Made by a program: the position numbers and the translations under genes
Shown: positions 62,013 to 63,724 of the stretch, piece after piece
Position numbering within the stretch: the stretch's first letter is position 1
Layout of the letters: the number at the start of each line of letters is the position of its first letter
Source: Hydrogenophaga intermedia
Lineage (GTDB): Bacteria > Pseudomonadota > Gammaproteobacteria > Burkholderiales > Burkholderiaceae_C
Assembly (NCBI RefSeq): GCF_000723405.1
Contig: NZ_CCAE010000004.1
Location: 62,001 to 126,000, forward strand
Length of the DNA: 64,000 nt
Reading direction: 5' to 3'
The notes under the pieces: model-generated
What the model was told of the DNA's origin: nothing
What the model saw: only the letters and a program-made list of their open reading frames with translations
Databases searched by the model: none

Positions 62013-62657
62013 ATGGAAACACTTGACCTGTTCGAGCCCACCGAGCGGGAGCAGCGCCTGGGACCCGGCGCCGTGCTGCTGCGCGGCTTCGCGCTGCCGC
62101 AGGTGCCCGCACTGGTGGCCGCCATCGCAGCCGTCGCGTCGGCATCGCCGTTCCGTCACCTGGTCACGCCGGGCGGCTTCACCATGTCGGTGGCGATGAC
62201 CAATTGCGGCGCGCTGGGCTGGACGAGCGACCGCCTGGGCTATCAATACACCGCCATCGACCCCGAGAGCGGTGCGCCCTGGCCCGCCATGCCGGCCGTC
62301 TTTGCACAACTGGCGAACGAGGCCGCGGCGGCGGCAGGCTTCGAGCACTTCGAGCCCGATGCCTGCCTGGTCAACCGCTACACACCCGGCGCGCGGCTGT
62401 CGCTGCACCAGGACAAGAACGAACGCGACTACACCGCTCCCATCGTGTCGGTGTCGCTGGGCATGCGCGCCACGTTCCTGTGGGGTGGCCTGGCGCGCAG
62501 CGGTCCCACGCTCAAGGTGGCGCTGCGCCACGGCGACGTGGTGGTGTGGGGCGGCGCCGACCGCCTGCGCTACCACGGCGTGTCGCCGCTCAAGGACGAG
62601 CCCCATGCGCTGCTGGGCAGCCAGCGCTTCAACCTCACATTCCGCCAGGCCGGATGA
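62013..62657 (+). CDS. alkB: DNA oxidative demethylase AlkB
   Basis: 2OG-Fe(II) dioxygenase that removes 1-methyladenine and 3-methylcytosine from DNA by oxidation. The 214 residues (E. coli 216) have all key residues: NRYTPGARLSLHQDKNE with H132 and D134, distal RYHGV H188, and RFNLTFR with R205 and R211, each one position off E. coli numbering. W70 and Y80-type substrate-lid residues are in LGWTSDRLGYQYT. It starts 2 bases after the first oxygenase gene and overlaps ada (ATGA). Confidence 0.96.
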   Translation: METLDLFEPTEREQRLGPGAVLLRGFALPQVPALVAAIAAVASASPFRHLVTPGGFTMSVAMTNCGALGWTSDRLGYQYTAIDPESGAPWPAMPAVFAQLANEAAAAAGFEHFEPDACLVNRYTPGARLSLHQDKNERDYTAPIVSVSLGMRATFLWGGLARSGPTLKVALRHGDVVVWGGADRLRYHGVSPLKDEPHALLGSQRFNLTFRQAG

Positions 62658-63724
62658 CCATGAACACGATCGCTGCTTACGACACCGACGACGCCCGCTG
62701 GGCGGCGGTGCAACAGAGGGAGGCCGCCGCCGACGGCCACTTCGTCTACGCCGTGCGCACCACCGGCGTGTACGCCCAGCCCAGCTCGGCGGCGCGCTTG
62801 CCCCGGCGCGAGAACGTGGCGTTCTTCGATTCCGCCCAGGCCGCCGAGGCTGCGGGCTACCGCCCCAGCCGCCGCGCCCAGGGCGACCGAACCCGCGCAG
62901 CGGCCGAGCGCGCCGCGCTGGTGGCGCGCGCCTGCCGGCTGATCGAGGCGTCGGAGACGCCGCCGCCGCTGGACGCATTGGCGGCCGATCTCGGCATGAG
63001 CCCCTTCCACTTCCACCGCCTGTTCAAGGCCGAGACGGGCCTGACGCCCAAGGCCTACGGTTCGGCCTTTCGCGCCCGACGCCTGCGCGCGGAACTGAGC
63101 GCGCCCGAGGCTTCCATCACCGACGCCATCTACGGCGCCGGCTTCAACGCCAACAGCCGGTTCTACGAGGCGTCGGACCAGTTGCTGGGCATGCGCGCCC
63201 GCGACTACCGGGCCGGCGGCGCTGGTGCGGACATCCGCTTCGCCGTGGGCCAGTGTTCGCTGGGCGCCATCCTGGTGGCCCAGAGCCAGCGCGGCATCTG
63301 CGCCATCCTGCTCGGCGACGACCCGGACACGCTGGTGCGCGAGCTGCAGGACCAGTTTCCCCGGGCCCGGCTCATTGGGGGCGACGCGGCCTTCGAGCAA
63401 TGGGTGGCGCAGGTGGTCGGTCTCATCGAGGCGCCCGCGATCGGCCTGCAACTGCCGCTGGACGTGCAGGGCACGGCCTTTCAGGAGCGGGTGTGGCGCG
63501 CGCTGCGCGAGATCCCGCCGGGGGCGACCGCGAGCTACACGGAGATCGCCGAGCGCATCGGCTCGCCGCGCTCGGTGCGGGCCGTGGCGCAGGCCTGCGG
63601 CGCGAACCGCCTGGCCGTGGCCATTCCCTGCCACCGCGTGGTGCGGCGCGACGGCGACCTGGCCGGCTACCGCTGGGGCGTGGAGCGCAAGCGGGAGTTG
63701 CTGCGCCGCGAGGCCCAGGCGTGA
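62654..63724 (+). CDS. ada: Ada-type methyltransferase/regulator lacking the N-terminal zinc cysteines
   Basis: A 356-residue Ada with three parts: N-terminal Ada_Zn_bind domain (~14-80), AraC-type HTH (~85-185) and O6-alkylguanine methyltransferase (~195-350) with PCHRVV acceptor C326. In E. coli the N-domain uses C38, C42, C69 and C72 for zinc, and C38 takes methyl from phosphotriesters to switch the protein to an activator. Here the matching residues are A41, S45, S72 and A75 (VYAQPSSAAR; RPSRRAQG), while surrounding motifs (RWAAV, DGHFVYAVRTTGVY, RRENVAFF, AAGYRP) remain. It should repair O6-methylguanine but not phosphotriesters. Translation overlaps alkB and the next gene. Confidence 0.93.
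   Translation: MTMNTIAAYDTDDARWAAVQQREAAADGHFVYAVRTTGVYAQPSSAARLPRRENVAFFDSAQAAEAAGYRPSRRAQGDRTRAAAERAALVARACRLIEASETPPPLDALAADLGMSPFHFHRLFKAETGLTPKAYGSAFRARRLRAELSAPEASITDAIYGAGFNANSRFYEASDQLLGMRARDYRAGGAGADIRFAVGQCSLGAILVAQSQRGICAILLGDDPDTLVRELQDQFPRARLIGGDAAFEQWVAQVVGLIEAPAIGLQLPLDVQGTAFQERVWRALREIPPGATASYTEIAERIGSPRSVRAVAQACGANRLAVAIPCHRVVRRDGDLAGYRWGVERKRELLRREAQA

Follow-up and report, generated by a model that had tools for sequence, protein, structure and literature searches.

An Ada regulator without zinc cysteines retains its DNA-reading domain and operator in Hydrogenophaga and other bacteria

The methyl switch of Ada, built on zinc and cysteine, is a textbook example. Here we describe an Ada protein of Hydrogenophaga intermedia in which, as is well supported, the switch has been lost and the DNA reader kept. 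The protein is encoded in the window (the whole 64,000-nucleotide stretch analyzed, positions 62,001 to 126,000 of contig NZ_CCAE010000004.1), and it is one of many. Among 221 Ada loci, 117 retain all four cysteines (four-Cys), 83 lack all three ligands other than the methyl acceptor C38, namely C42, C69 and C72 (zinc-less), and 21 lack the N-domain altogether (domain-less). The A box of the operator is missing where the domain is missing, yet present where the zinc ligands alone are lost. In the zinc-less group natural mutation has parted DNA reading from damage sensing, which suggests that these relatives sense damage in another way.

Aligned to E. coli Ada (EcAda, taken from NC_000913.3), the window protein has A41, S45, S72 and A75 at the positions of C38, C42, C69 and C72 with a constant offset of +3, and both the PCHR cysteine (C326) and the AraC-type helix-turn-helix (HTH) are intact, just as the initial annotation had read them. 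By full-length similarity the protein is of EcAda type, lying above the curated PRK15435 cut-off of 345 (Table 1), and its N-domain scores 93 bits on the Pfam model Ada_Zn_binding against a cut-off of 23; by the four zinc cysteines, including the acceptor C38, it is not. An Ada annotation well above curated cut-offs does not imply phosphotriester sensing, and the earlier view that this Ada cannot sense phosphotriesters holds in that the known switch needs both the zinc ligands and C38 to work in the described way.

The residues that read DNA are in place. PMC4437013 describes R45 and R71 of EcAda as hydrogen-bonding the A box, within a list of contacts that also includes F114, H115 and R118; the window Ada has their counterparts in R48, R74 and the motif SPFHFHR. 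Across the alignment R48 is conserved in 82/82 rows and R74 in 81/82, both being kept in zinc-less and four-Cys proteins. A survey of N-domain columns, with 18 distant four-Cys rows left out, found no new conserved cysteine or histidine that could replace the zinc ligands; a substitute metal site was rejected on this ground, and the window Ada is probably free of zinc. The predicted N-domain is a confident block (pLDDT 87-94 over aa 11-70) within a poor model of the whole protein (pTM 0.38), and the predicted N-terminal part matches 1u8b, the methylated N-Ada/DNA complex, with a Z of 14.0 and 4.5 Å rmsd over 131 residues, a match that also spans the first HTH. As the model is built on the family alignment, stability of the fold without zinc is not demonstrable from it.

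Table 1. Coordinates of the Ada operon, its operator and the Ada domains in the window
Feature	Position	Strand	Notes
Extended Ada operator GAATTCGACCGCAAGGAGCGGAGTG	61225..61249	+	~60 bp before the first gene; motif common to zinc-less and four-Cys loci; A box AAT 61226-61228, B box GCAA 61235-61238, X-box-like CGG 61243-61245
Oxygenase-NA (PF09859), 2OG-Fe(II) oxygenase	61309..62010	+	First operon gene; 233 aa; Pfam 273.8 bits
alkB, DNA oxidative demethylase	62013..62657	+	214 aa; NCBIfam PRK15401 343.8 bits
Zinc-less Ada	62654..63724	+	356 aa; NCBIfam PRK15435 467.9 bits, cut-off 345; four zinc cysteines absent
Ada N-domain, aa 13-78	62690..62887	+	A41/S45/S72/A75; R48 and R74 = EcAda R45/R71 (A-box contacts)
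Ada AraC-type HTH, aa 87-190	62912..63223	+	B-box reader SPFHFHR; arginine in NSRFYE
Ada C-terminal O6-methylguanine methyltransferase domain, aa 192-354	63227..63715	+	Active C326 in PCHR
Second Oxygenase-NA	63721..64000	+	Runs past the window to ~64410; PF09859 218.3 bits on L003 7722-8408

The 221 loci comprise the 80 best homologues in named genomes, a source biased toward close relatives of the window, together with a class sample, an order sample and E. coli Ada; the class and order searches used E-value cut-offs (1e-75, 1e-60), so distant Adas are missed. Within the order sample (91 loci after one of 92 matches, G639, was left out: 71 four-Cys, 12 domain-less and 8 zinc-less), zinc-less proteins make up 8/79 of the N-domain-bearing Adas, the window included. 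The class sample (47 loci: 38 four-Cys, 8 domain-less) has 1/39, which is the window itself. One zinc-less pair is identical (L006 = L035), and the domain-less class falls from 21 to 17 once duplicates (L143 = L162, L144 = L163) and fragments (L150, L158) are removed. Thirty fusion-type loci (L001, L004, L008-L034) stand outside the 221, and we take the CCCA reading of several of them as a gap artefact.

The distribution of the cysteines indicates a change in two steps. The three non-acceptor ligands are either all present or all absent wherever the N-domain exists among the 221 loci, with no intermediates, and C38 is present in 73 of the 83 zinc-less proteins, so the window Ada represents a later, second step within an older change. 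C42, C69 and C72 are lost across a wide proteobacterial group, represented by Pseudomonas, Burkholderiales, Xanthomonadales and one myxobacterial metagenome-assembled genome, and C38 was lost later, in the Hydrogenophaga lineage. The same-genus proteins L035 (H. borbori, the nearest named relative, 88% identity), its identical copy L006, and L007 read G/S/S/A at the four zinc positions, and 3/60 same-genus genomes, the window genome counted, encode a protein closely homologous over the N-domain and HTH. With these relatives lacking the same cysteines and 83/221 loci lacking the three ligands, four separate sequencing errors are very unlikely; error and single-strain mutation, either of which the initial annotation had named as a possible refutation, were both rejected. 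Its idea that the loss of exactly these four residues marks the strain is not supported by the comparison: three of the losses are common property of the group, and only that of C38 is local.

The operator shows what the protein has kept. The window operon is preceded by an EcAda-type site, AATN6GCAA with AAT at 61226, and equally by a Cada2-type site of B box and CGG X box, GCAAGGAGCGG at 61235-61245, with a spacer of 4 nt compared with the 3 bp described for Caulobacter Cada2 in PMC10957082. Searched through its own 5.29-Mb genome, the extended box, a pattern written after the consensus and the window site had been seen, gives this one perfect site and no other within 3 mismatches, and the reversed control gives 0. 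At no more than 350 bp from ada or 300 bp from the operon, AATN6GCAA is found in 62/81 zinc-less loci (4.3 expected by first-order resampling) and 66/116 four-Cys loci (8.0 expected), and in 0/17 domain-less loci (0.6 expected). The longer form, with GG ten bases on, gives 52/81 (0.08 expected), 47/116 (0.5) and 0/17 (0.05), respectively. When up to 3.5 kb upstream is counted where sequence is available, AATN6GCAA occurs in 66/81 zinc-less, 71/116 four-Cys and 2/17 domain-less loci, both domain-less cases being more than 1.6 kb away from ada. At the best right-half sites, TT at -7/-6 is found in 67/71 zinc-less, 67/75 four-Cys and 0/9 domain-less loci (Fisher 3e-9 for zinc-less versus domain-less, with rows that are related rather than independent).

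Eight of the 10 C38-lost rows have upstream sequence: AATN6GCAA stands at the best right-half site in the window, L035, L076 and L252 and elsewhere upstream in L083 and L110, and L043 and L102 have no upstream site of this form. A C directly before GCAA, reported to raise EcAda affinity about tenfold (PMC3788762, PMC4437013), is found in 92% of zinc-less boxes versus 31% of four-Cys boxes. On the protein side, the arginine of NSRFYE is present in 83/83 zinc-less, 98/116 four-Cys and 14/17 domain-less proteins, and E. coli has serine there. We read this arginine as the putative positional equivalent of the RLHD arginine of Cada2, whose other RLHD letters are not present in the window motif. Because CGG recalls the X box of Cada2 and the NSRFYE arginine recalls that of RLHD, these operators appear to be three-part, whereas operators with an A box or an X box are described by Kamat et al. 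(PMC10957082). In P. putida, deletion of the A box did not abolish alkA induction (PMC3788762), so even a conserved A box may be dispensable.

The genes behind this operator form a tight one-strand cluster in the order Oxygenase-NA, alkB, ada, Oxygenase-NA. A 2-nt gap separates alkB from the upstream Oxygenase-NA, a 4-nt overlap joins it to ada, and the second Oxygenase-NA, with a GTG start of our choosing, overlaps the ada stop. A homologue of Oxygenase-NA or alkB lies upstream of ada on the same strand in 56/83 zinc-less and 0/117 four-Cys loci, so that proteins without the zinc site also differ in their gene order; 48/117 four-Cys loci have such a homologue downstream of ada, in flanks that are 1.5-2.5 kb for most four-Cys loci and 5 kb for most zinc-less loci. 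A scan of 61100-61400 for -35/-10 promoter elements found nothing, and shuffled sequences gave a mean of 0.

Two further features of these loci deserve mention. The Oxygenase-NA genes (PF09859) on either side of alkB-ada are paralogues, and a homologue of the second is found downstream of ada in 15/83 zinc-less loci. In addition, a small Ada_Zn-like protein (mini Ada_Zn) is encoded downstream of ada in 12/83 zinc-less and 0/117 four-Cys loci, the four-Cys flanks being shorter. Matches to it lie 3-32 nt after the ada stop in L233, L089, L067, L059, L061, L065 and L094 and 635-750 nt after it in L042, L092, L036 and L045, with a partial match in L048; the L268 copy scores 32.5 bits on PF02805. 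In all 11 full matches the counterparts of C42, C69 and C72 are kept and that of C38 is glycine, the reverse of the pattern in a zinc-less Ada with C38 as its sole remaining cysteine of the four. No mini Ada_Zn protein was found in the window genome.

The descent of the group may be more complex than a single loss. On a quick tree of 136 rows built from C-terminal sequence (18 distant or long-branch rows dropped from a first tree of 216 rows, the rest thinned by identity; the first tree itself leaves out L143, L144, L158, L150 and the short L148), all 50 zinc-less rows fall in one group of 55 (SH-aLRT 94), together with 3 domain-less and 2 four-Cys rows. With the four zinc sites removed, a tree of 62 hand-picked rows places four-Cys proteins of the P. 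putida type inside the zinc-less proteins (24 zinc-less + 5; SH-aLRT 100). A single zinc-less clade, and with it a single origin of the loss, is weakly rejected (AU p 0.0275, in a test chosen with the first tree already known). This nesting could reflect either a regain of three cysteines or parallel loss, and it is possible that the zinc site was regained in the P. putida type. The six proteins of this type (L062, L064, L068, L069, L073 and L085) have best N-domain identities of 0.62-0.68 to zinc-less and 0.55-0.59 to four-Cys proteins, the four sites omitted. The domain-less Adas L193/L194 and L195 sit inside the zinc-less group and others occur elsewhere; L194 and L195 have a B+CGG site without an A box at the usual spacing.

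Is the zinc-less N-domain simply dying, or the gene itself heading for loss in Hydrogenophaga? The nesting of domain-less L193, L194 and L195 in the zinc-less group would fit such decay, as would the same-genus L007, which lacks its C-terminal half, and the 57/60 same-genus genomes without a close homologue. We nevertheless consider decay very unlikely. Over 1119 zinc-less pairs, which are not independent, median pN/pS is 0.31 in the N-domain, compared with 0.40 in the HTH and 0.25 in the methyltransferase, 20 N-domain columns are invariant in 75 zinc-less rows, and the A box is kept; the window gene has its full length, its PCHR motif and an operator without mismatch. Between the window Ada and L035 the values for N-domain, HTH and methyltransferase are 0.29, 0.24 and 0.18, the N-domain being slightly more relaxed. 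Purifying selection and the retained A box led us to reject a pseudogene for the group, the window gene shows no sign of being one, and across the group the N-domain is maintained by selection, as the sequence comparisons support. The initial annotation had argued for selection rather than decay, which is supported for the group and unsupported as an account of a strain-specific loss of four residues; the new role that it proposed is better described as the old DNA-reading role kept and the sensing role dropped.

How, then, might such a protein work? According to He et al. 2005, cited through PMC4437013, the C38 and C69 thiolates of EcAda keep the DNA backbone away by repulsion, and methylation of C38 lifts this and raises affinity about a hundredfold. 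In the window N-domain the negatively charged zinc-cysteine center would be gone and the repulsion absent, so that the domain should act as the methylated, DNA-competent form all the time, and we infer that the window Ada would bind its operator constantly. From the A+B(+CGG) operator it would control all four genes of the operon (Oxygenase-NA, alkB, ada, Oxygenase-NA), its own being one of them. Methylation of C326 by O6-methylguanine would most likely signal the damage, as for Caulobacter Cada2, in which methylation of the PCHR cysteine by that base is described as the transcription switch (PMC10957082). This reading, a metal-free A-box reader freed of the electrostatic methyl switch that takes its signal at C326 as in Cada2, is our tentative preference, held at just short of an even chance, with the C-terminal switch as its inferred part. 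PCHR is present in 82/83 zinc-less rows; the cysteine is needed for repair anyway, so its conservation is no test of a switch. Residues specific to zinc-less proteins yielded only four positions (168, 184, 210 and 313), an uninformative signature, in a comparison that left out 18 distant four-Cys rows and the six P. putida type rows. The one row without PCHR, which counts against such a switch, is the same-genus L007 (genome G037), which matches the window Ada to residue 221 and continues in unrelated letters: the gene may be broken, its assembly faulty, or the C-terminal domain dispensable. A C-terminal switch would be impossible in G037 unless the assembly is wrong there.

The main rival to a switch at C326 is constitutive activity, in which the activator, rid of its repelling zinc center, is permanently on, the operon is expressed without damage, and C326 serves in repair only. 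Loss of the charged center mimics the methylated state of the mechanism in PMC4437013; a Cys-to-Gly change in the A-box domain of EcAda is constitutively active according to Kamat et al. (PMC10957082); glycine occupies the C38 position in the identical L035 and L006 and in L007 and L083; and in L007 the methyltransferase domain that would hold a switch is missing. On the other side, PMC10957082 reports that a locked-on Cada2 response is costly to Caulobacter under mitomycin C and that locked-on PCHR variants are absent among 1,000 Cada2-like proteins, and the tightly conserved operator suggests regulation over constant expression. We therefore regard constitutive activity as unlikely, if a serious contender. 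A pure repressor, which the initial annotation had also allowed, would seem least likely, given that neither the activator operator nor the repair operon has been lost.

Sensing might instead occur in trans. The second Ada that had been suggested for this genome does exist, as an Ada-AlkA type fusion with four intact cysteines (L001, C12:91360-91551) that carries the only other Ada_Zn domain found there, and it could take the phosphotriester methyl and activate the operon, with the zinc-less Ada as auxiliary or competitor. Long second four-Cys Ada_Zn proteins in G037, G038, G711 and G433, and second PF02805 matches in several of 16 further zinc-less genomes, would suit this arrangement. It is improbable nonetheless: the zinc-less Ada is the only PF02805 match (E 0.001) in 12/25 other genomes (5/9 and 7/16, the completeness of the 16 being not stated), including five that have also lost C38 (G807, G833-G836), a thirteenth (G822) has besides it only a mini Ada_Zn protein, and no second extended box was found in the window's own genome. 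About equally improbable is a role for C38 alone, zinc-free, as a methyl acceptor or as the sensor of another electrophile in the C38-keeping relatives, a role that the window Ada would have lost. Its retention in 73/83 zinc-less proteins, among which position 75 varies freely, means that C38 may still do something there, but its kept or lost state takes 7 changes on a quick tree, its column entropy is no lower than the domain median, zinc activation of the thiol would be absent, and the proposal is inapplicable to the window Ada.

In comparison with known systems, the window Ada resembles EcAda in its order of N-domain, AraC HTH and O6-methylguanine methyltransferase with PCHR, in its A- and B-box reading residues, in its AATN6GCAA operator, and in having alkB in the ada operon. 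It differs in that, without zinc ligands and C38, it has no phosphotriester switch of the known kind, in its operon order (oxygenase-alkB-ada rather than the ada-alkB of E. coli), and in adding a CGG box and the NSRFYE arginine where EcAda has serine. With Cada2 and Cada2-like proteins (Kamat et al. 2024, PMC10957082) there is a different set of likenesses: no usable N-domain cysteine switch, a PCHR cysteine, a B box followed by CGG and, in the window, an arginine at the presumed RLHD position. However, Cada2 lacks the whole N-domain and its promoter lacks the A box, both of which the window keeps, and its Ada_Zn_binding match places the window Ada outside the Cada2-like proteins, which have no A-box domain. 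P. putida Ada (PP_0706; PMC3788762) is close in another respect, as six relatives of its type are the nearest to zinc-less proteins by sequence; that type differs in its four cysteines and, in the fetched stretch, has alkA just upstream in 3/6 and alkB in 0/6. The Ada-AlkA of the window's own genome shares an Ada_Zn_binding domain and an AraC-type HTH and differs in its intact cysteines and in having an AlkA-like C-terminus instead of a methyltransferase.

The 2024 survey by Kamat et al. (PMC10957082) states that the four cysteines are kept in every EcAda-like protein; neither class of that survey accommodates the zinc-less group, and we found no published description, in the open-licence literature, of an Ada that keeps its N-domain without the zinc cysteines. 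We propose, as a plausible though still doubtful generalization, that the group uncouples the two jobs of the N-domain by combining a metal-free A-box reader locked in the DNA-competent form with a C-terminal cysteine that senses base methylation, which would add to EcAda and Cada2 a third kind of adaptive response, placed between them and marked by an A+B+CGG operator. The zinc-less group opens the electrostatic-switch model to testing and provides a state midway between the designs of E. coli and Caulobacter.
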